Below are positions 48,676 to 61,120 of a stretch of 64,000 nucleotides of DNA, piece after piece. The notes beneath the pieces are model-generated. The model did no database searches. It saw only the letters and a list, made by a program, of their open reading frames with translations, and was not told the DNA's origin. Source of the stretch: an uncultured Acidimicrobiales bacterium (GTDB lineage: Bacteria; Actinomycetota; Acidimicrobiia; Acidimicrobiales; SZUA-35); the NCBI GenBank assembly GCA_937976305.1, contig CALJSB010000028.1, positions 1 through 64,000 on the forward strand, written 5' to 3'. Numbering within the stretch: the first letter of the stretch is position 1; each line of letters begins with the position of its first letter. The translations under genes and the position numbers were made by a program.

Positions 48676-48743
48676 ACCAGCAAGTTCACGAACTGGCAGA
48701 TTTCTGCACGAGGGCCGAGCACGAATCTGCCAATTCGGTTCAG
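48672..48743. terminator. Bidirectional terminator nested between two converging stop codons
   Basis: Outer arms CTGAAC/GTTCAG contain the TGA stops of the HAD gene and tsaD; the inner stem TGGCAGATT/AATCTGCCA gives 9 bp. A small AGTTC/GAACT palindrome also lies inside. Confidence 0.65.
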
Positions 48744-49771
48744 GCGAGTTCGGGTAGTCGCAGGTTTGGCGTCGCTCCGCCGTCGAGGTCGTGCCCGCCC
48801 TCTTGGTCGAGGCGCCACAATCCGGCAGCTCCGATCATGGCCGCGTTGTCGGTACAAAACGCCCGATCAGGGATCAGCGCATCGAGATCTCGCCGCTCGG
48901 CTTCTTCGGCAAAGCGCTCACGCAGTCGAGAGTTCGCAGCCACGCCACCACCGAGGCACACGCCACGGGCACCAACCTGCTCGGCCGCCCGCATTGTCTT
49001 GGTGACCAACACGTCGACCACGGCTTCTTGGAATCCGGCGCACAGATCGGCGTCGGACGCATCGGGGTTGGCCCTCACGTAGTTGATCACTGCAGTCTTC
49101 ATACCGCTGAAGGAGAAATCGAGGCCCTCGTCCATCATTCCCCGAGGGAATCGGATGGCCTCACGGTCGCCTGTGCTGGCGAGTCGATCGACAAGCGGGC
49201 CGCCCGGATAGCCAAGGCCGAGGTAACGAGCGACCTTGTCGAAGGCTTCGCCGGCAGCGTCGTCGATCGTTGAACCAAGGATGCGATAGCGACCGAGATC
49301 TTCGAGATGGACGATCAGCGTGTGGCCACCCGAAACCAGCAGGACGACGAGCGGCGGTTTGAGATCGGGCCGTTCGAGGAAGGTGGCAAACAGGTGCCCT
49401 TCCATGTGGTTGACACCGACGTAGGGAACGCCCCAGGCCAGTGCAAGGGCTTTCGCCTCGCTGACTCCGATGAGCAGGGCACCGATGAGGCCCGGACCGT
49501 GCGTGGCGACGACCGCATCAATGTCTGACCGGCCGACGCCAGCTTCGGAAAGAGCGCTCGTCAAGACCGGCTCAAGCATCTCGAGGTGGGCCCGGCTCGC
49601 CACTTCGGGCACAACACCACCGAACTCGGCGTGTTGCTCTACCTGGCTCGACACGATGTTCGAGAGCACCTCGAGCCGATCGTTACCGCTGTCTCGGTAG
49701 CGGCGGACAACGGCGACCGACGTCTCGTCGCAGCTGGTTTCGATCGCGAGCACCGTCGTGACCTCAGACAT
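48740..49771 (-). CDS. tsaD: tRNA N6-threonylcarbamoyladenosine transferase TsaD
   Basis: TsaD moves the threonylcarbamoyl group onto A37 of ANN-decoding tRNAs with TsaB and TsaE. Sequence marks are VLAIETSCDETSVAVV at the start, the iron ligands in GVNHMEGHLFA, and LLVSGGHTLIV. The track starts at 49852 but the family start is ATG 49771 (MSEVTTVLAIETSCD), giving 343 residues and overlapping rimI by 8 bases. Last gene of tsaE-tsaB-rimI-tsaD. Confidence 0.97.
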   Translation of the reverse strand: MSEVTTVLAIETSCDETSVAVVRRYRDSGNDRLEVLSNIVSSQVEQHAEFGGVVPEVASRAHLEMLEPVLTSALSEAGVGRSDIDAVVATHGPGLIGALLIGVSEAKALALAWGVPYVGVNHMEGHLFATFLERPDLKPPLVVLLVSGGHTLIVHLEDLGRYRILGSTIDDAAGEAFDKVARYLGLGYPGGPLVDRLASTGDREAIRFPRGMMDEGLDFSFSGMKTAVINYVRANPDASDADLCAGFQEAVVDVLVTKTMRAAEQVGARGVCLGGGVAANSRLRERFAEEAERRDLDALIPDRAFCTDNAAMIGAAGLWRLDQEGGHDLDGGATPNLRLPELA

Positions 49772-50321
49772 CTGACGGCTCACCTTCTGCCTCGTTTCCT
49801 TCTGCAGCTGCGGCCGCGCTCTGTGGCCCGGACGCAACGCTTTGGAGATCATGAAGCCACATCACCAGCGCGTCTTCACCGTGGCCGTAGTAGCCAGAGC
49901 GCACGCCGACGGGAGCGAAGCCCGCTCGGCGATACAACGCAAGCGCCGCCTTGTTGTCGACCCGCACTTCGAGGGTCAACGACTCTGCGCCCCGCTCCTT
50001 GGACACGCCAACGAGCTCATCGAGTAGACGACGTCCGAGCCCGTGGCCCTGCCGCTCGGGGTCGACCGCAACGTTCATGATGTGACCCTCGACGATGCGG
50101 CCATCAGCGGCGACGAACATCACGCCGCCGAAGCCGACCAGATCGCTGGTGACGCTGTCGATCGCGACCACCCAGTGGCGCTCGGCCCCCGACATCTTCA
50201 GCTCGCCAGCAAAGAGATCCTCTGACCATGGTCGAGGGCTGACCGTTGCCTCGAGGCGCGCCATCGAACCAACATCGCCACGGGTCATCTCGCGAAACGT
50301 CACGGCAGCGGTCGAGCTCAT
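49764..50321 (-). CDS. rimI: Ribosomal protein S18-alanine N-acetyltransferase-like protein
   Basis: The GNAT fold is visible in AVDPERQGHGLGRRLLDELV (acetyl-CoA site) and ALYRRAGFAPVGVRSGYY (RimI-type GFxxxGxRxxYY). RimI acetylates the N terminus of ribosomal protein S18 and in many bacteria other proteins. Its ATG overlaps the tsaB stop as ATGA. The C terminus has an Ala/Glu/Ser tail of about 30 residues. Confidence 0.92.
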   Translation of the reverse strand: MSSTAAVTFREMTRGDVGSMARLEATVSPRPWSEDLFAGELKMSGAERHWVVAIDSVTSDLVGFGGVMFVAADGRIVEGHIMNVAVDPERQGHGLGRRLLDELVGVSKERGAESLTLEVRVDNKAALALYRRAGFAPVGVRSGYYGHGEDALVMWLHDLQSVASGPQSAAAAAEGNEAEGEPSDV

Positions 50322-50995
50322 GAGTTGTGCCGTGTCTTGATGTTGATCTGCACATCGGGATCGCGCAGATAGAGCGGACGCACGTCGGGGCCGGTTTGAT
50401 CCGGCCGACCGAGGCTCAAGCGACCAATCTGCTCGGCTGTCGGCTCAAATCCAATCGCATGCTCGAAGTCGAGCTCGGCAAAGACATCGGCGTATCGGTC
50501 AGCACCATCGCCGATGACCAGGTCTCCAGCATCGAATCGCTCGGCCATCGCTGCCGGCTCGCCGTAGGCCGGTTGATCGAGTTCGTTCGGCGTGCCATCA
50601 CTGCCGACAGCGAAGCGTTGTTGGAACACCTCTGCTCTTCGGGCATCGATGACGGCAGCGACCGTGCGCCCCGGATGAGCAGCAGCGAGAGCTTCGAGAC
50701 TCGTCACACCAACTAGCGGGCGATCGGTTGCCAGGGCGAGAGTTCGAGCCGTCGTGATACCGACTCGTAGTCCGGTGAATCGCCCGGGTCCAACATCGAC
50801 GGCAAACCGATCAACCTCGTCGATGCTTACACCGCCCTCGTCAAGCACGGCGGCGACCATAGGGGTCAGTTCCTCGGCGTGGCGGCGGTCGGTCAACGAC
50901 CCCATCGCGGCCAACAGCTCCGGCGCACCATCGGCGCGGCTCAGGAGCGCCACACCCACCATGGCCGTTGACGACGTGAGGGCAAGCGTCAGCAC
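50318..50995 (-). CDS. tsaB: tRNA threonylcarbamoyladenosine biosynthesis protein TsaB
   Basis: TsaB is the non-catalytic partner that activates TsaD. The family signature is DVGPGRFTGLRVGITTARTLALATDRPLVGVTSLEAL. The track start at 51043 is replaced by GTG 50995 with GAGGGGGC upstream, giving MLTLALTSSTAMVGVALL, so the usual ILAIDTST opening lacks its Asp. It overlaps tsaE by 7 bases and rimI by 4 bases. Confidence 0.93.
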   Translation of the reverse strand: MLTLALTSSTAMVGVALLSRADGAPELLAAMGSLTDRRHAEELTPMVAAVLDEGGVSIDEVDRFAVDVGPGRFTGLRVGITTARTLALATDRPLVGVTSLEALAAAHPGRTVAAVIDARRAEVFQQRFAVGSDGTPNELDQPAYGEPAAMAERFDAGDLVIGDGADRYADVFAELDFEHAIGFEPTAEQIGRLSLGRPDQTGPDVRPLYLRDPDVQINIKTRHNS

Positions 50996-51516
50996 GACGC
51001 CCCCTCGCCAAAACCGTCCATCCCAGCGAGCCGTTCTTGCCACCGCGGGTCGGATGACTCAAAAGAGAGGGTTCGATCGTCGTCTGCGTCACCGAACTCG
51101 ATGCGCACGACGAGATGGTCGGGCAACACGGGGTCGATCTGTTCGCCCCACTCGATCACCGTCACGCCAGATTCGAGCAGTTCGGGTAGATCGAGATCGA
51201 GCGTGTCTTCGAGTTGGTCGATGCGATACACGTCGAGGTGGTTGAGCGTGAGGCGACCGCGATACTGACTGTGGATCGTGAACGTCGGGCTCGTGATTCG
51301 ATCGGCAACCTGGAGGCCACGCCCCAATCCCTGGGTGAAGCAGGTTTTGCCCGCTCCGAGGTCGCCAGCCAACACGATGAGATCCCCATCGGCGACCACC
51401 GCAGCAAGCCGCTCAGCCACCTGCTGAGTCTCGGCCGCGCTGGCAGTTCCGACGCGCAGAAAAGCCGCAGGATTCGTGGGATTGGAATCCCCTGGTTGAT
51501 CAGATGGGCTCGCCAC
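50989..51516 (-). CDS. tsaE: tRNA threonylcarbamoyladenosine ATPase TsaE
   Basis: TsaE is the ATPase of the TsaBDE complex. Walker A is VLAGDLGAGKTCFTQGLGR, Walker B-like is LNHLDVYRI, and SPTFTIHSQY and VIEWGEQID match the family. 175 residues. First gene of the tsa operon; its leader contains two mutually exclusive hairpins. Confidence 0.95.
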   Translation of the reverse strand: MASPSDQPGDSNPTNPAAFLRVGTASAAETQQVAERLAAVVADGDLIVLAGDLGAGKTCFTQGLGRGLQVADRITSPTFTIHSQYRGRLTLNHLDVYRIDQLEDTLDLDLPELLESGVTVIEWGEQIDPVLPDHLVVRIEFGDADDDRTLSFESSDPRWQERLAGMDGFGEGASC

Positions 51517-51601: not shown

Positions 51602-52279
51602 CTACGGCCGAGGCGCGTTGTCGACGTTGGCGTCGTAGTCGATCTGCCAGAGATTGCGGCTCGTCTGCACCGTCAGGATGAGCAACGCAACGAGGTTGAG
51701 GGCGACAATCACCGGCACACCCCAGCTGAAAATCTCGGTGCCCACGAAGAACACGAAGGTGTTGAGAGCGATGTAGCCGATACGAATCTCGGTGGGCCCG
51801 ATGCCGTAGTAGGCGATCTGAAACTGGTTCGTTGCTGCAAACGAGAGGAACGACACCGCCATGGTGGCGCAAGTGATCAGCAGCAGAATCAGAAAGAGGA
51901 ACTCCAGCCACCACACCTCGACGAGGAATGAGTAGCCGATCACGATCGACCCGGCGAAGAAGAAGTCGAGCAGGTGATCCATGAAGAACCCCCACTTCAC
52001 GAGCCCCTGCTTTCGGTATTTGCCAAGTGAACCATCAAAGGAGTCCGTGAACCACTGGCCGAACACCATGAAGGACATGGCGTGGAGCCACATGCGGTTG
52101 TCGACGGCGAGCCAGCCGAACAACACAGTGCCCGCCGACCACAGAATCGTGATGTAGGTCAGGTGATGGCTGAGGATTGGCTTGGGGATCTTCGGCACAC
52201 CCCAGTCAATGAACGTGCGCTCGAGCGGCCCGAGGAGCGACTGCCCCTTCTTCTTGTCGCCGGCAAAGCTCTCAGCCAT
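51602..52279 (-). CDS. CDP-alcohol phosphotransferase family protein
   Basis: Integral membrane protein, 225 residues, with several hydrophobic segments and the CDP-alcohol phosphotransferase motif FTDSFDGSLGKYRKQGLVKWGFFMDHLLD. This keeps all four metal-binding Asp residues and both Gly, but has Gly-Lys where the motif usually has Ala-Arg. Such enzymes transfer phospho-alcohols from CDP carriers in phospholipid synthesis; the alcohol is unknown. It lies apart from the operon starting at 53195. Confidence 0.85.
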   Translation of the reverse strand: MAESFAGDKKKGQSLLGPLERTFIDWGVPKIPKPILSHHLTYITILWSAGTVLFGWLAVDNRMWLHAMSFMVFGQWFTDSFDGSLGKYRKQGLVKWGFFMDHLLDFFFAGSIVIGYSFLVEVWWLEFLFLILLLITCATMAVSFLSFAATNQFQIAYYGIGPTEIRIGYIALNTFVFFVGTEIFSWGVPVIVALNLVALLILTVQTSRNLWQIDYDANVDNAPRP

Positions 52280-52322: not shown

Positions 52323-53195
52323 TCATCGGCGATCGGTTCGCGAAATCGAGCGAATGGCACCGGCGACGGCCTGCTGCGCGAGCACACGGACATGGGCTGG
52401 ATTGGCTTCGACCTCTTGGGTGGCGAGCACCACGAGCGCATCACCGTCGGCAGCCGAGTGGGCCGGCAACAACGCCCGAGCCAGACCATCGTGCGCACTC
52501 TGGGCAGCAAGATGGCAGGTCACTTTGTCGATCGCTGCGTTGGTGGCAACGACCCCGATGGTGGTGTTCGCGAAGGCATCGCCGAGCTCTGCCGAGTCGG
52601 CGCTCACTGGTGGGCCGGGATCGTCGACTTCCGAACCGTCGCTGATGGCACCGAGCGCATTCACCGCCACCAAGGCGCTCACAACGAGGTCATCAGCCCG
52701 GAGGGTCGCGGAGACAATGCCGCCGTCAACCGCAGCCTCTTTGCCCCACCACTTGCCCAGCGTGGCGCCGGTGCCGGCACCGACCAGGCCAAGGGCGACC
52801 TCACCCGTTGTGGCGGCGAGGGCTGCTTCACGCCCTTCGGTTGAGCTTGGCCGCACGCTTGGGTCGCCGACTCCCAAGTCGAACAAGCTCATGCCAACCA
52901 CAATCGGCACGGGCCCTACCGCCGTCTCAAAGCCTCGGCCCTGTTCTTCGAGCACACCCATCACACCGTCTGCTGCTGCAAGACCAAAGGCAGAGCCGCC
53001 GGACAAGACAACCGCATCAACGTGGCCAACCGTTCGGGTGGGGTCGAGCAGTGCAAACTCTCGAGTCGCCGGCGCACCGCCCCGAACCTCGCCCGAGCCG
53101 ATAGTGCCCGGTGGAGCAAGGACGACCGTGCAGCCGGTCCGAGCCTCTGTCTGGGTCCAATGGCCAACGCGGATGCCCGCGACCTCAGTGATCAC
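52323..53195 (-). CDS. P1-family (S58) peptidase
   Basis: 290 residues similar to DmpA/aminopeptidase-type P1 peptidases: AVVLSGGSAFGLAAADGVM, GAAFDLG-like GMSLFDLGVGDPSVRP, and the autoprocessing region FANTTIGVVATNA in which the chain is cut before Thr/Ser. ATCHL-type VTCHLAAQSAHDGLARAL is the usual C-terminal signature. Substrates in this family include D-amino-acid amides and beta-peptides. Last gene of the four-gene minus-strand operon, 9 bases after the glycosyltransferase. Confidence 0.87.
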   Translation of the reverse strand: MITEVAGIRVGHWTQTEARTGCTVVLAPPGTIGSGEVRGGAPATREFALLDPTRTVGHVDAVVLSGGSAFGLAAADGVMGVLEEQGRGFETAVGPVPIVVGMSLFDLGVGDPSVRPSSTEGREAALAATTGEVALGLVGAGTGATLGKWWGKEAAVDGGIVSATLRADDLVVSALVAVNALGAISDGSEVDDPGPPVSADSAELGDAFANTTIGVVATNAAIDKVTCHLAAQSAHDGLARALLPAHSAADGDALVVLATQEVEANPAHVRVLAQQAVAGAIRSISRTDRR

Positions 53196-53204
53196 GGGCC
53201 GAGA

Positions 53205-54314
53205 CTAGCTCCGGCACGCGGCGCTGAGCCGGGCATCGAGTTGCGGGCCCACCTCGCGCCACGAGAAGCGCTGCATCGCGTCGGCAAGACCAACGCAGTT
53301 CGCATGGGCTGCCTCGAAATCGCTGACCACCTGCTCGAGTCGGGTGCCAAAGCTGCCGGGCTCGTAGAGAGCGTCGGCGTGCCACGGCTCGGGCACGATC
53401 TCGGGATAGGCCAATGCGTGCGGCAGAACGGGCACGCAGCCAGCAGCGATCGCTTCGACCATTGCGACGCCGAAAAACTCATGCTTGGCGCAACTCACCA
53501 CGATGTCGCTCTCGATCAAGAGATTGCGATAGCGGCTGCGATCAAACGGGCCGACAGCAACCGCCCAGTCGTCGAACTCTTCGAGAATCCTCGAGCGAAC
53601 CTCTGATGGCACCACCGACTCTCGGCCTGCCAGCGCAAGCCGAACCCGATGCCCACCCTGGCGGAGCCGCCGCAAGGCCGAGAGGAACGCCGCCGGATCC
53701 TTGTCGTTCTCCCAACGATGGGGCCACAGGACCAACGGACCATCAGGAGACGCTGCCACCGGGCCGCCCTCACGATCAGACGTGGGTTCCAACTCAACGC
53801 CGACGGGCATCACTTCGAATCGGGCGAGCACTTCGTCGAGGGCAAAGAGTTGGTCGGCCTCGGGGCGCTGGTAGAGGAACACCGGGAGCGTGTCGATCAC
53901 CGCTTGGCGGTGGAAAGCCGAGTTGAAGAGCACAACGTCGGCACTGCACCACGACATCCAGTTTCGCAACACCGCTTCGGCGTCGACGTTGCCCGAAGTA
54001 GTCGGATAGACGATCTGGCTCTCGTGTTGGAACACCACGACGGGAGTTGACGCCAGATCACGCCGACACAGGCCCAACAGCTGAGCGACGTCGACAAGCC
54101 CGCTGACCAGCAGCACATCGGGTGCACCGTGCTCGGCCACATGACGGCCGATGTCGGCCGACAACGGAACGGCTCCCGCCCGAAGACGCCAGCGCCACGG
54201 GCCCTCCGAGAGCGACACGATCGAGACGTCGTGAGCGCTCGCGTGCTGGTATCCCTCGGCCCATCGCCGGTGCGAGCCGCTGAACCAGGGCTCGACGAGC
54301 AACACATGTGCCAT
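53205..54314 (-). CDS. Glycosyltransferase, DUF3524/GTDC1 (QTMAN)-like
   Basis: The 369-residue protein begins LLVEPWFSGSHRRWAEGYQ, which is the DUF3524 N-terminal pattern of the GTDC1 family, with HRWENDKDPAAFL, AKHEFFGVAMVEAIAAGCVPVLPHALAYPEI as its GT4-type C-terminal half. Animal GTDC1 (QTMAN) adds mannose to queuosine in tRNA-Asp; a bacterial homologue could do this or modify another acceptor. The similarity is strong across the length, the function is inference. It overlaps the hydrolase stop by one base (TGATG), so it is translationally coupled. Confidence 0.85.
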   Translation of the reverse strand: MAHVLLVEPWFSGSHRRWAEGYQHASAHDVSIVSLSEGPWRWRLRAGAVPLSADIGRHVAEHGAPDVLLVSGLVDVAQLLGLCRRDLASTPVVVFQHESQIVYPTTSGNVDAEAVLRNWMSWCSADVVLFNSAFHRQAVIDTLPVFLYQRPEADQLFALDEVLARFEVMPVGVELEPTSDREGGPVAASPDGPLVLWPHRWENDKDPAAFLSALRRLRQGGHRVRLALAGRESVVPSEVRSRILEEFDDWAVAVGPFDRSRYRNLLIESDIVVSCAKHEFFGVAMVEAIAAGCVPVLPHALAYPEIVPEPWHADALYEPGSFGTRLEQVVSDFEAAHANCVGLADAMQRFSWREVGPQLDARLSAACRS

Positions 54315-55336
54315 CAGTCAGCGCCAGCTGCATCGGTCGGGTCACGAGGGTCGTCAGCCTGCGCCCGCTCGACCAAATCGACGATGAAGTCGTTGACTCC
54401 ATCCGGCCGTTCGAGCATCAGCTGGTGCCCGGCATCGGGGAGCACCTCGAGCGTGGCTCCGGTGATCGAAGCGGCCAGAAGCTCGCTCTCTTCCGGCTCG
54501 GTCACGAGGTCTCGGGATCCCACCGTGACACCGACCGGAAGGTCGACAAACTGCAGCCGCTCGAGCACATCGTGGTCAAAGATTGATGGAGCAATCGTCA
54601 ACAGCTCTTCTGGTGGCAACGCCTCGAATGCCAACGCGGTTTCTCGCACGTCATCAGGATGAGCGGCCAGCCCAAACGTGGAGCGCACGGCGATCTCGCC
54701 GAGGTCCGAGGGCGGAATCTTGGCGATTCGGGCGGCGAGCGCCGGACGGGAACGAGCCAGCTTGCCGAGCCGACCGGCAAGTGGGGCAAGCAAGCCGGTG
54801 GGCACGCGAGCCGGATTGCGACCGGCTGACGACACAAACCCGGCCGAGCCGACACGATCAGAAACGATCTTCGGGTGATCAACGAGGAATCGACCGAGAA
54901 CCATCCCGCCCATCGAGTGACCCACGATCGTGGCCGAGGTCAGGTCGAAGTGCTCGAGGATGGTCACGAGGTCACGGGCGTTGGCGGGCAGCGTTGGGCC
55001 GTCAGTGCCCGCGACCGAGTCACCGTGGGCCCGAAGGTCAACGGCGAAGATCCGATATCGATCTGCGAGTTCGAACTGGTGGTGCCACACCGTGGCCCGC
55101 AGAGTGACGCCGTGCAGGAGCACAACCGGGTGCCCCTCCCCCGCCTCGATCACGTTGATCTCGCCACCGTCGTGTGAGGTCAGGCGATGTTGCGTGGCTT
55201 CAGCGAGGAGCATCTCAGGGCCGGTTTCGCCGAGCTGTTCGAGGTCGTCAGCTGCAGAGCCTCGGAGCTTGCGAAGTGTGAGCCGTTCGACGCCGAACCC
55301 GAGAGCGATGCCAGCGGCCAGAGTTCCGATCTTCAT
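54314..55336 (-). CDS. Alpha/beta hydrolase
   Basis: 340 residues, beginning with a hydrophobic stretch (KIGTLAAGIALGFGVERL) that may anchor or export it. The hydrolase core has HGVTLRATVWHHQF as oxyanion region, GHSMGG as nucleophile elbow, and the Asp/His in GSRDLVTEP and DAGHQLMLERPD. Substrate unknown. The family has many esterases, haloperoxidases and lipases. It is followed by the glycosyltransferase with overlapping codons. Confidence 0.88.
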   Translation of the reverse strand: MKIGTLAAGIALGFGVERLTLRKLRGSAADDLEQLGETGPEMLLAEATQHRLTSHDGGEINVIEAGEGHPVVLLHGVTLRATVWHHQFELADRYRIFAVDLRAHGDSVAGTDGPTLPANARDLVTILEHFDLTSATIVGHSMGGMVLGRFLVDHPKIVSDRVGSAGFVSSAGRNPARVPTGLLAPLAGRLGKLARSRPALAARIAKIPPSDLGEIAVRSTFGLAAHPDDVRETALAFEALPPEELLTIAPSIFDHDVLERLQFVDLPVGVTVGSRDLVTEPEESELLAASITGATLEVLPDAGHQLMLERPDGVNDFIVDLVERAQADDPRDPTDAAGAD

Positions 55337-55945: not shown

Positions 55946-56014
55946 TCTCTCACGTTGCGGGCTCCTCCCAACTAGATGACACTCTGGCGTCCGCATCAGA
56001 AAGAGAGCATTGCC

Positions 56015-56824
56015 ATGACGCCAACCGCAGCAGACGAGTCGGCGACCCGGGGCCGAGTGGCCGGGCGGGTCGCTCTCATCACCGGCGCGGCATCCGGTCT
56101 CGGCAAAGCCGACGCCCTTCGCTTGGCCGATGAGGGTGCCCGAGTCGTCCTCACCGACGTGAACGAGCAGGCAGGCCGAGACGTGGCAGATGCCTGCGGT
56201 GGAGAGTTCGTTCTCCAAGACGTCGCAGACGTGACCACGTGGGTGCCGCTGATCGAACACGTCGTGGACGCCTACGGAGGGCTCGACATCCTTGTCAACA
56301 ATGCGGGGATCGCGCCGATTGCCAACATCGAGACAACGACCACAGACGAGTGGCGACGAGTGATGGGTGTCCACCTCGACGGCACCTTCTTCGGATGTCG
56401 AGCGGCCATACCAGCGATGGCCAGCAGCGGTGGCGGGTCGATCATCAACATGTCCTCCATCGCGGCGCGAGTCGGCCTGTCGGAGCACCTCACCTATTCC
56501 GCGGCCAAGGGCGCCATCGCAGCAATGACGAGATCGATTGCAGTGCACTGTCGGCAACAAAAGAACCTCGTTCGCTGCAACGCGCTACAGCCCGGGAGCA
56601 TTTCGACGCCGATGGTCCACGCTGCAGTCGAAACAGTCACGGGCCTGAACATGATGGATCAGCCCGACCCTGAAGCCTTTCGCATAGCGATGGGGATCGG
56701 CGAACCGATTGACGTCGCCAACATGGTGTTGTTCTTGGCCTCCGACGAGTCCAAGCACATCAACGGCGCCGAGATCGTGATCGACAACGGCGATTCAGTG
56801 GAGTACTCGGTGAGTTCATCATGA
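56015..56824 (+). CDS. Short-chain dehydrogenase/reductase
   Basis: 269 residues from ATG 56015 (MTPTAADESATRG), behind an AAAGAGAGC site; the track's 55976 start is unlikely. The nucleotide motif is TGAASGLG, the NNAG motif DILVNNAGIAP, and the catalytic triad Ser-Tyr-Lys is in NMSSIAARV...YSAAK. The C-terminal part has GSISTPMVHAAVETVTGL, as in steroid/alcohol dehydrogenases. It is coupled to the VOC protein by an ATGA overlap. Confidence 0.9.
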   Translation: MTPTAADESATRGRVAGRVALITGAASGLGKADALRLADEGARVVLTDVNEQAGRDVADACGGEFVLQDVADVTTWVPLIEHVVDAYGGLDILVNNAGIAPIANIETTTTDEWRRVMGVHLDGTFFGCRAAIPAMASSGGGSIINMSSIAARVGLSEHLTYSAAKGAIAAMTRSIAVHCRQQKNLVRCNALQPGSISTPMVHAAVETVTGLNMMDQPDPEAFRIAMGIGEPIDVANMVLFLASDESKHINGAEIVIDNGDSVEYSVSSS

Positions 56825-57276
56825 CCATCACCGGACTCATCCACGTCAACATCAACTGCAGCGACTTCGATCGGTCACTCGCCTTCTACGAACTGCTCGG
56901 GTTTAGCAAGGCCATCGACGTGCCGCCCACGAACACCCCGGAAGTCGCTGCTGCAGTCGGCATGCCGCCATACCGGGTGAAAGGGGCCCTCCTGGCCCTC
57001 CCAACCCCGACTGGCGTCTTCATGCTCGATCTCCTTGAGTGGCAGGAACCCAACGATCTGTCGCCGCCCTATCCCCACCTCTACCACCTCGGGATTGCTC
57101 GCATCGCTCTCGCCACCGACGATCTCGATGGAGACATGGCGCGCCTCGAGAAGCACGGGGTTGTTTTTCTTTCCGAACCCGCCGCTGTCACCATCGACGA
57201 CCGACCAACGGTGCGCTTCGTGTGCTTTCGCGACCCAGACGGCACCGTGCTGGAGCTCGTCGAGCAAGTGAGCTAG
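56821..57276 (+). CDS. VOC-family (glyoxalase/dioxygenase-like) protein
   Basis: 151 residues (MTITGLIHVNINCSDFDRSLAFYELLGFS). Two betaalphabetabetabeta modules are visible, with the metal-ligand pattern HVNIN...YHLGIARIALATDD...GTVLELVE. Member proteins include glyoxalase I, extradiol dioxygenases and methylmalonyl-CoA epimerases; I cannot choose. Coupled to the SDR gene, so they act on one pathway. Its stop shares CTAG with acpS on the other strand. Confidence 0.83.
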   Translation: MTITGLIHVNINCSDFDRSLAFYELLGFSKAIDVPPTNTPEVAAAVGMPPYRVKGALLALPTPTGVFMLDLLEWQEPNDLSPPYPHLYHLGIARIALATDDLDGDMARLEKHGVVFLSEPAAVTIDDRPTVRFVCFRDPDGTVLELVEQVS

Positions 57277-57704
57277 GAGACGCTCAGCTCGGCGGTGGTG
57301 AGCACCACGGCAAGGGCGGACAGGTCGCTGTGCGACAGGGTGATGAGCCAGTTCGACACGCCGCGGGACTCGGCCAGCTTTTTGGCCCGGCCGGTCACGA
57401 TCAGCTCGGGCTGGCCAGAGTGGTGCTTGGTCACCTCAAAGTCGTGAAAGTCGGCGCCGCCGAGTCCCACCCCGAGCGCCTTCAACCCTGCCTCTTTGGC
57501 CGCAAACCGGGCGGCGAATCGTTGTGCTGCATCAGCGGCTTCCCGGCAGTAGCTCTGCTCGGCATCGGTGAAAACACGGCTGACGAAGCTCGGACGACGG
57601 GCCACGATCTGACGCATCCGGTCGACGTCGACAATGTCGGCACCAACCGACAGGATCGGCGCCCCAGCGGCCAGCCCGATCAGCGGGGTCAGGTCTGGGT
57701 CCAC
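57273..57704 (-). CDS. acpS: Holo-[acyl-carrier-protein] synthase
   Basis: AcpS transfers phosphopantetheine from CoA to acyl carrier protein. Metal and substrate motifs are SVGADIVDVDRMRQ and RFAAKEAGLKALGVG. The C-terminal SLSHSDLSALAVVL is normal for the family. 143 residues, GTG start, overlapping the giant glmS-like gene by 16 bases; this glmM-glmS-acpS order is the actinobacterial one. It converges with the VOC gene. Confidence 0.92.
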   Translation of the reverse strand: MDPDLTPLIGLAAGAPILSVGADIVDVDRMRQIVARRPSFVSRVFTDAEQSYCREAADAAQRFAARFAAKEAGLKALGVGLGGADFHDFEVTKHHSGQPELIVTGRAKKLAESRGVSNWLITLSHSDLSALAVVLTTAELSVS

Positions 57705-60700
57705 CGGGCTGCAACGTCAGAAATTGGGGCGGTGAGCAGCTCGACCGTAGACACGTCCGCCAACAGGTCTTCGCGGAACGACGGCTCGCGCTCGGTGACA
57801 ACATCGACGAGCTGGCGGTATCGGTTGCGGTAACCCTGGAGGATCGAACGAGCGGTCGGCACACCGAGATCGTCAACAAGCGAGACGTGACACAGGGTAA
57901 GACCCGTCGTTGTCCCGTCTTTCACCTCGGGAACGATCATCACGATTCGTCCGTCAGAACCAACCGTGACAATCGGTACCCGTTCGACGGCAACCCGATG
58001 CTTGTTACCTCGCAACGTCGGATCCTTGTCGGTCCGCGACCGCATGTTCGTGGCGATGCCGCCCTTGTCGGCCACGAAGATCTGTGCACCGTCGCCGACG
58101 TCTCCTTCGACCCGGTAACGGGTGAAGCCAGAGATCTCGCCAATGGCGGGTGTGATCGCCGCCAGGGTTCGCAACGTGCGGTAGGAGAGCCTGTCTCGAG
58201 GGCACCCAGTGGCCAGTACACCCTGGATGAGATCAGACTGCAGCAAACTCTCATCAGCTCGAGAGATTCCAACGGTGACGGTCTTGGCCTGGTGCTTGAT
58301 GGCATCGACTGGTCGGGTGAGCTCTTCGATCGCCAACGTCAACGCCGCGGCAAGATCCTCGACGATGACGCCAGGAGTTCCGACCTTGCCGAACTCGACT
58401 TGGTAGGACTCAAACCGGGTCGAACCGCCAGCGAATCGTAGAAGCGAAGCAACCCGTGTTGCGGTGGAGGCCTCCAAGTGTCCGTTGTACTGACCGACAC
58501 GCAACGAATCGAAGAATCGAGCCGCGTGGGTTTCGATGTTCTTGCCGAACTCAACGAACCAGTTCGGCCCGGCGGCGCCGACGTAACTCTCGATGACGGC
58601 GCGGATCTCACGAAGTGGTCGGGCCGACGCGTCGATCGACAGGGCGGCTTCGTATCCGAAGAGGTGACCGACAACGGTCGACAGCACGAACGCCAGCTGC
58701 GGGTGAGTCTCAGGAACGCCGATGACCTCGAGAGCAGAGCTGAAGCGGTTCTCCCCTTCGGTGGCGATCACAATCGGGGCTGCTTTGTGGGCCCGGAAGA
58801 TGGCAACTTCCTTCGCAACGTCGTCGGCATTGGAGCCGACAAGGCCAGCAGCGCACACCAGGATCATCGGCTCAGACGAGAGGTCGATGTGCTTTTTGTC
58901 TTCGGTCACATCGCACGCGATCGACTTGTAGCAGAGCTCAGAAAGCTTGACCCGCAGCTCACGGGCGGCCACGACATTCGGACCGTTGCCGACCATGGCC
59001 CAGTAGCGGCGGCTTTGGGCGTGTCGTTCGGCGGCCCGAGCGATCTCTTCTCGCTTGGCCAGCGTGCCTCGCATGGCATCGGGAAGATCTCGCAGCGCAG
59101 CGAGAAGTGCCTGGTTCGCCTCATGGTCCATGACGACGTTTGGCAGAACCTCGGCGACACCGATGGCCAACAGGTTGCCGGCTGCAATCTGGGCGTAGAA
59201 CGCCTTGGTGGAGGCCACGCTCATCTCAACGTCACGACCATCAGAGGTGTAGAGGACGCCATCTGACTTGTCGACGAGGTCGCTGCCCCGCCGGTTGACG
59301 ATCGCGATCACGGTGGCGCCGCGGCCGCGGATGAGATCGACGGTGCGGTTGGTGTCTGTGGTGGTACCGGACTGTGAGATTGCGACCACCAAGGTGTCGC
59401 TCATGTCATCTCGCAGATGGAACCCAGAGAGTTCGGTGGCCGTGATGGCTCGAACGTTCACTTCGGAGTTCACGAGCGCCGACTCGAAGGCAGCAGCCAC
59501 CGCTTGGCCCGCGATCGCTGCGGTGCCCTGCCCGATCACTTCGACACGACGAATCTGTCCCGACTCGAGATCCGCCCTGACTTCAGCCGTGAGCGTCTCG
59601 GAGGGGAGGCGAACATCGAGATGATCACCCTTGTTGACCAGCCGTCCACGAAGGGTCTTCGCAAACGAAACCGGTGACTCGCTGATCTCTTTGAGCAGGA
59701 AGTGCGGAGCGTCTCCGCGATCGATGTCTCGGGTGGTGACAGCGGGCGGCAGCCACTCATCTGAACCAACCGGCAGCTGCGTGCCGTCATAGGCGAAGCG
59801 GCTGACACCGGCGTCGTCACCGGCCTCGGCGCCCGAAATCCGAATGATCTGACCTTGACTGGCCACCGGATTGTCTGGATCGGCCGGCGTCTCGCCATCC
59901 ATCCGCATGTACTGCGTTGCATCTTCGACAACGCCGTAGGGCTCAGAGGCCACGACAAAGGCGTCCTCGCATCGGCCGACGAACACACCCTGGCCGCTGC
60001 CGCGAAGGCAGAGGTGAAGATCTTCCGGAGCCGACGTTGTGCTCACGCCGATGGCGACCGACCCCTCGAACTGAGCGACGGCACGCCGCACCGACTCATC
60101 GAGATCGAAACCTTCGGCGAGGCCACGGCTGACCAGCGTCGGGATCACCTTTGCGTCCGTGGTGATTTCGCCCGCGATCGAGAGCTTCTCGGCTGCGATC
60201 AGATCGGCGTAGTTGTCGACATCGCCGTTGAGCGTCGCTGTGACGTACGGACCCTGCACACCGAGCGTGCGCTCGGTCTCATCGCTATTGACCGGGTGAG
60301 CGTTCGGTTCGCTGATGATGCCGACCGAGGCCCAGCGGGTGTGGCCCAGAACGGTGATCTCTGCCTCTTCGTTTTCGAGTGCCTTGTGCAGGAGGTTGTC
60401 GGCCACGATGGCGGATCGCATGGCCGCGGTGTTGTCGCCGAGTTCGCCGATCTCCGCTGCGGCCTTGTAGACGAAGCTGAGGTAACCCTGGGGTGTCCGA
60501 ATCGCTCCGTTGGTGAACAGTCCTCCGCCGTTTCGCTCGTTGAGCAATGTGGCGATGCCGGGGCTCTCGAGATCGAGGTCGTGGTTACGCACGAGCAGAT
60601 GAAGGCCAGCCGAGTCACGACCACGCACCTCGAGGCGATCGATCGCGCTCAGAGCCTGCTGGACGCTCAGGAGCCCTGCCACTGCCGCCGAACTCGGATC

Positions 60701-61120
60701 GGGACCCGCAAGCGCCGCCACTTCACGAGCGGTCCGCAAACGGTCGCGTTCGATCGCCCACGTCGCATCCTTGGCCGCAATCAACGCCGCATTGACGGCT
60801 TCGAGATCTTCGACTCGATCACCCTCGGCTTCGAGCCATGCTTCGATCGCAGCCAAGCTCTCGTTGATCTGATCGAGTCGGCTGGTCAGCTCTGCTGGCA
60901 AGGTGGAATCGGCCAGCAAGGCAATAAGCCCGGGCTCACCACGAAGGCTCAGGTCGACATCGGCGAGCTTGTTCGCTCGCTCCAGCAGAACAGCTGAAAG
61001 CCCGGCAGATCCGGCCGTCGGGAAGTCGCGAAGCGCGTCATCGACTGCTGACAGAATCTCCGCCGTTGTTGGGGGCCGCCGAGTGGACCGGCGACGCGTG
61101 ATGGCGATGATGCCGCACAT
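57689..61120 (-). CDS. glmS: Giant glucosamine-6-phosphate synthase (GlmS-like)
   Basis: GlmS makes glucosamine-6-P from fructose-6-P and glutamine. Here the enzyme is 1,143 residues against about 610 normally. The glutaminase begins MCGII (Cys2 nucleophile), then about 140 extra residues precede RLEVRGRDSAG; GHTRWASVG, LNGDVDNY and TTDAKVI follow. PHFLLKEISESP and SQSGTTTDT mark the isomerase, and the E. coli catalytic residues Glu488, His504 and Lys603 align with Glu728 (LSELCY), His744 (EDKKH) and Lys946 (QAKTVTV). About 100 residues are inserted between the last two, and about 195 follow the normal end. It lies between glmM and acpS, where glmS is expected. Activity is inferred, not shown. 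Confidence 0.85.
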   Translation of the reverse strand: MCGIIAITRRRSTRRPPTTAEILSAVDDALRDFPTAGSAGLSAVLLERANKLADVDLSLRGEPGLIALLADSTLPAELTSRLDQINESLAAIEAWLEAEGDRVEDLEAVNAALIAAKDATWAIERDRLRTAREVAALAGPDPSSAAVAGLLSVQQALSAIDRLEVRGRDSAGLHLLVRNHDLDLESPGIATLLNERNGGGLFTNGAIRTPQGYLSFVYKAAAEIGELGDNTAAMRSAIVADNLLHKALENEEAEITVLGHTRWASVGIISEPNAHPVNSDETERTLGVQGPYVTATLNGDVDNYADLIAAEKLSIAGEITTDAKVIPTLVSRGLAEGFDLDESVRRAVAQFEGSVAIGVSTTSAPEDLHLCLRGSGQGVFVGRCEDAFVVASEPYGVVEDATQYMRMDGETPADPDNPVASQGQIIRISGAEAGDDAGVSRFAYDGTQLPVGSDEWLPPAVTTRDIDRGDAPHFLLKEISESPVSFAKTLRGRLVNKGDHLDVRLPSETLTAEVRADLESGQIRRVEVIGQGTAAIAGQAVAAAFESALVNSEVNVRAITATELSGFHLRDDMSDTLVVAISQSGTTTDTNRTVDLIRGRGATVIAIVNRRGSDLVDKSDGVLYTSDGRDVEMSVASTKAFYAQIAAGNLLAIGVAEVLPNVVMDHEANQALLAALRDLPDAMRGTLAKREEIARAAERHAQSRRYWAMVGNGPNVVAARELRVKLSELCYKSIACDVTEDKKHIDLSSEPMILVCAAGLVGSNADDVAKEVAIFRAHKAAPIVIATEGENRFSSALEVIGVPETHPQLAFVLSTVVGHLFGYEAALSIDASARPLREIRAVIESYVGAAGPNWFVEFGKNIETHAARFFDSLRVGQYNGHLEASTATRVASLLRFAGGSTRFESYQVEFGKVGTPGVIVEDLAAALTLAIEELTRPVDAIKHQAKTVTVGISRADESLLQSDLIQGVLATGCPRDRLSYRTLRTLAAITPAIGEISGFTRYRVEGDVGDGAQIFVADKGGIATNMRSRTDKDPTLRGNKHRVAVERVPIVTVGSDGRIVMIVPEVKDGTTTGLTLCHVSLVDDLGVPTARSILQGYRNRYRQLVDVVTEREPSFREDLLADVSTVELLTAPISDVAARWTQT

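Follow-up and report, generated by a model that had tools for sequence, protein, structure and literature searches.

Does an uncultured actinobacterium attach a sugar to the queuosine of its tRNA? The question was raised by a gene in the window, a 64,000-nucleotide stretch of an Acidimicrobiales contig, whose product had been predicted to be a bacterial homologue of the animal queuosine-tRNA mannosyltransferase QTMAN/GTDC1. The animal reaction uses GDP-mannose as the donor, forms an alpha link to the allylic hydroxyl of queuosine in tRNA-Asp and requires QTMAN (PMC8654956, PMC12518689). Sugar-modified queuosine is described only for animals in the papers that we found. The QTMAN family is already named in Pfam, where bacterial proteins are covered, and is widespread in bacteria. 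We found no experimental report on bacterial QTMAN/DUF3524 in the literature searched, of which coverage was partial, and no test of the bacterial enzymes seems to have been published. Here, we add the co-occurrence of the family with queuosine genes across phyla, an order-specific group of members in a t6A slot, and a control showing that this slot is optional.

The gene product and its predicted fold

The open reading frame was confirmed exactly at the coordinates given in Table 1, starts with ATG and has a clear coding signal by codon usage. Animal QTMAN was compared with the window protein through the Pfam model PF12038 (QTMAN_N), which matched nearly over its full length (profile positions 2–168 of 168) at 133 bits against a cut-off of 25 (E=1.2e-38). 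C-terminal of this domain, the GT4 models PF00534 and PF13692 both scored above cut-off, and the E-x7-E motif of GT4 enzymes was present as E279...E287. These matches, together with a conserved catalytic core, bore out the predicted membership of the QTMAN/GTDC1 family. The window protein resembles the animal enzyme in the full-length N-terminal domain, the GT4 domain and E-x7-E, and its genome holds the substrate pathway. It differs in being bacterial, in belonging to a divergent clade and in reading HESQ for the usual HENQ.

Table 1. Genes around the QTMAN-family gene and queuosine genes of the same genome (coordinates refer to the window unless a contig is named)
Feature	Coordinates	Strand	Details
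QTMAN-family GT4 glycosyltransferase	53205..54314	-	369 aa; QTMAN_N residues 4-173, GT4 about 190-318
Alpha/beta hydrolase	54314..55336	-	Pfam Abhydrolase_6 E=7.5e-21
P1/S58 peptidase (DmpA-like)	52323..53195	-	Pfam Peptidase_S58 E=1.2e-34
CDP-alcohol phosphatidyltransferase-like protein	51602..52279	-	Pfam E=1.7e-6; between P1 peptidase and tsaE
tsaE (t6A37 synthesis)	50989..51516	-	Pfam TsaE E=5.4e-36
tsaB (t6A37 synthesis)	50318..51043	-	Pfam TsaD-family domain E=2.3e-25; syntenic tsaB cluster
rimI-like GNAT acetyltransferase	49764..50321	-	Pfam Acetyltransf_1 E=1.2e-17; syntenic
tsaD (t6A37 synthesis)	48740..49852	-	Pfam TsaD E=3.1e-97
SDR-like and glyoxalase-like genes (two, by eye)	55976..57276	+	
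GlmS-like protein	57689..61120	-	1143 aa; Pfam SIS domain only, 1e-5
queA	C87:24983-25978		single copy
tgt	C87:26032-27081		single copy
queG	C7:65302-66279		240.7 bits, above curated cut-off

Residue conservation was read, in window numbering, across 114 family members, 91 outside the window group and 23 inside it. S14, H15, W40, R43, H97, E98, Q100, R200, D204, K205 and E287 were invariant in the 91 other members and kept in the window protein; these positions, along with W201, G230, E279, G282 and G292, were fixed or nearly so in all 114. By analogy with GT4 enzymes, R200, K205 and the E-x7-E pair would presumably bind the sugar nucleotide.

An AlphaFold model built from the window protein and 34 relatives was confident (pLDDT 91.6, pTM 0.90), and the fold that it predicts is GT-B. 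Foldseek matched the model to the GT-B enzymes BshA, MshA, PimA and glycogen synthase (TM-score up to 0.74, 12–19% identity); the best solved matches were GT4-type enzymes, with the GDP-mannose enzyme PimA among them. PimA, BshA and MshA shared the predicted fold at TM-scores of about 0.66–0.74, apart from one crystal form of MshA that superposed worse (0.45). A PDB sequence search with the window protein alone matched nothing, whereas a family profile retrieved GT4 enzymes, including PimA and WaaG/RfaG, through the C-terminal half; no solved QTMAN structure was found in the PDB by sequence. PimA, BshA, MshA and WaaG/RfaG are similar in sequence to the window protein in the C-terminal half, but identity in the fold matches is low, the N-terminal (acceptor) domain has no sequence match in GT4 enzymes of known structure, and the acceptors of those four enzymes are lipids or small molecules.

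Queuosine genes in this genome and in others

The original prediction proposed a search of the genome for queuosine genes and would have counted the lack of the pathway against itself. In this assembly (4.42 Mb, 160 contigs, 91.6% complete), queA, tgt and queG were all present, with queA and tgt adjoining in the order ruvA-ruvB-queA-tgt-secD-secF. Their only matches lay on contigs C87 and C7 and the window lies on C28, in agreement with the earlier statement that the window holds no queuosine gene, and the glycosyltransferase gene is physically unlinked to them. We ruled out QueH as the last step of queuosine synthesis, with queH in none of 20 genomes, this one included, and QueG in all 20. 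Since queF was not found in this incomplete assembly, preQ1 may be salvaged, or queF may have been missed.

Because the gene is a QTMAN relative and the genome carries queuosine-making genes, the bacterium probably glycosylates its tRNA. Three lines support the proposal of tRNA-queuosine glycosylation in an actinobacterium: membership of the family, conservation of the catalytic core and presence of the queuosine pathway. In our best explanation, to which we give a probability of roughly 0.7 with the tRNA reaction included, the product is a retaining QTMAN-family enzyme of the GT4 type with a GT-B fold; from sequence, model and analogy, it is probably a queuosine-tRNA glycosyltransferase that transfers mannose. 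Tgt would insert preQ1 at G34 of GUN tRNAs, QueA and QueG would convert it into queuosine, and the QTMAN-family enzyme would then attach a hexose to the cyclopentene diol of queuosine-34, with mannose donated by GDP-mannose as the likeliest sugar. The target would be a tRNA with a GUN anticodon, tRNA-Asp by analogy with animals, and we infer the allylic hydroxyl as the site of attachment. GluQ-RS, the bacterial glutamyl-queuosine synthetase, is known to decorate this diol at Q34 of tRNA-Asp; it is an unrelated, aminoacyl-tRNA synthetase-like protein that adds glutamate instead of a sugar.

Across the phylum Actinomycetota, QTMAN_N was detected in 16 of 297 genomes, and all 16 carried both tgt and queA, while tgt scored above cut-off in 187 of the 297 overall (Fisher p=4.8e-4, by genome counts). 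Within the window's order, 41 of 248 genomes had QTMAN_N; tgt was present in 40 of these, as against 148 of the remaining 207 (p=6e-5), and the sole exception (G466) is 60% complete. Counted by taxonomic family, the order-level significance weakened to p=0.017, so relatedness matters for these statistics, which are genome counts, or family counts within the order, uncorrected for the species tree. Among 50 genomes of several phyla taken from the genome-collection scan, 45 had tgt and four of the other five had queA, leaving one small MAG with neither (tgt or queA in 49/50). Genomes with QTMAN_N carry the queuosine pathway almost always.

These counts also bear on another reading, in which a GT4 enzyme with this fold acts on a lipid, polysaccharide or small molecule and the co-occurrence reflects lineage only. 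The GT4 family is very large and covers many acceptors, and the family-level count inside the order lowers the significance to p=0.017. The tgt/queA link nevertheless recurs across the phylum and again in the genomes of several phyla, the QTMAN_N match is full-length, and no recurrent glycan gene cluster surrounded QTMAN in 41 loci; we consider such an acceptor improbable.

In the Actinomycetota sample, we also observed many genomes that lack tgt and whose QueA-family match is weaker (E about 1e-60 to 1e-75), and others with tgt but without queA. These mismatches suggest that some QueA paralogues have another role and that Tgt can be used differently.

An order-specific clade

The genome-collection scan gave at least 589 confirmed bacterial relatives, the best 80 of which span about nine phyla: Desulfobacterota, Planctomycetota, Chloroflexota, Spirochaetota, Bacteroidota, Nitrospirota, Bdellovibrionota, candidate division TA06 and Actinomycetota. 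Cultivated bacteria are among these 80, for example Desulfopila aestuarii DSM 18488 and Desulfatibacillum alkenivorans DSM 16219. Should the bacterial enzymes prove active, glycosyl-queuosine would be common among bacteria as a modification of the wobble base; the enzyme of animals might then have come from bacteria, and hosts with simple genetics could serve to study its function. Two other origins or roles were rejected: a scan of viral contigs gave no relative that would point to a phage, and as a defence gene it had no PADLOC match, the Pfam GT4-conflict hit being only a weak generic GT4 match.

A tree of 54 proteins separated the window protein and 22 relatives of its order from the other members by a branch with support of 100/98 (bootstrap 100), and this clade was restricted to its own order in the sample. 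A quick tree agreed except for one additional long-branch row, L085, that the 54-protein tree omits. The other bacterial QTMAN_N proteins share the two domains, the core residues and the tgt/queA association with the window protein, but they lie on the far side of the branch and outside the t6A cluster, and their QTMAN_N scores are mostly higher (174–202 bits for most, against 133–135 for the window protein).

Within the clade, K41 is replaced by R in 22 of 23 members, the window protein included, and N99 is substituted in 9 of 23: the window protein and the members closest to it carry S at this site, and two others carry T. The window protein retains H, E and Q of the HENQ motif. Y103 is variable in the group, and W119 is nearly fixed there. 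The N-terminal domain of GT-B enzymes holds the acceptor, and the group differences fall in this domain, so a shifted acceptor detail is possible. Given the lower QTMAN_N scores and the changes at otherwise near-invariant positions, the sequences suggest that the specificity of the clade may have shifted.

One form of such a shift would be a Q34 glycosyltransferase using another sugar, another hydroxyl or Q-tRNAs other than tRNA-Asp. It would fit the separation of the t6A-linked clade from all other sampled bacterial members and the differences at positions 41, 99, 103 and 119, in or near conserved N-terminal motifs, while the core residues stay; moreover, being homologous to GT4 enzymes does not by itself determine which sugar is donated. 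Nothing positive points to another sugar or tRNA, however, and the conserved core is common to the whole family; we judge altered specificity unlikely. That the order-specific clade in the t6A cluster makes a glycosyl-queuosine unlike animal manQ in its sugar, hydroxyl or tRNA set, which would be the first sugar-decorated queuosine of bacteria, is a tentative idea that we hold to be rather unlikely.

An optional slot in the t6A cluster

The original prediction placed the glycosyltransferase as the third gene of an operon with an alpha/beta hydrolase and a P1 peptidase. The geometry of the trio stood, with the hydrolase immediately upstream (1-nt stop/start overlap) and the peptidase 9 nt downstream; the position did not, as the QTMAN gene is second. 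All 23 window-group members lie in, or beside pieces of, one housekeeping cluster with the order glmS-acpS-nnrD-alr-[hydrolase]-QTMAN-[P1 peptidase]-[uracil-DNA glycosylase]-tsaE-tsaB-rimI-tsaD-groES-groEL, whereas family members outside the group are located elsewhere, unlinked to t6A genes. On inspection of the sequences by eye, no recurrent queuosine gene was recognised among the neighbour clusters in other phyla.

As a control, we read the tsaE region of 27 genomes from the order that lack QTMAN_N. The cluster was present in all 27, and the slot was tightly closed in most, in tgt-positive and tgt-negative genomes alike. The alpha/beta hydrolase was an optional member, also found in relatives without QTMAN. 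The P1 peptidase occurred in 17 of 23 linked QTMAN-positive loci as against 8 of the 27 QTMAN-negative clusters, one of the latter in a tgt-negative genome; we rejected this enriched but optional neighbour as a functional partner or as evidence of the acceptor. Relatives lacking the gene have the slot closed and keep the cluster all the same, so the neighbours say little about the substrate, and the operon turned out to be a weak pointer to function: hydrolase, peptidase and t6A genes keep their order where the glycosyltransferase is missing.

From the conserved place of the gene upstream of tsaE-tsaB-rimI-tsaD, seen in 23 loci, one might suppose instead a joint role with the neighbouring t6A genes, such as glycosylation of t6A37 or control of its synthesis. 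We consider this very improbable, since the QTMAN-negative relatives keep the t6A cluster without the gene, members outside the clade are unlinked to it, and the slot is accounted for simply by gene order within a housekeeping cluster.

Several minor features of the region were also recorded. No RNA families or tRNAs were found in the window. Directly upstream, tsaE is repeatedly preceded by a uracil-DNA glycosylase-like gene (L052, L053, L077–L080 and several QTMAN-negative clusters), and the CDP-alcohol phosphatidyltransferase-like gene was not among the recurrent neighbour clusters of relatives. Neither alr nor nnrD was seen at its usual cluster place in the window; two opposite-strand genes, SDR-like and glyoxalase-like, stand where relatives have them. 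At the glmS position, the window encodes an unusually large GlmS-like protein, whose cluster has members in 15 loci and a median-length example of 1147 aa.
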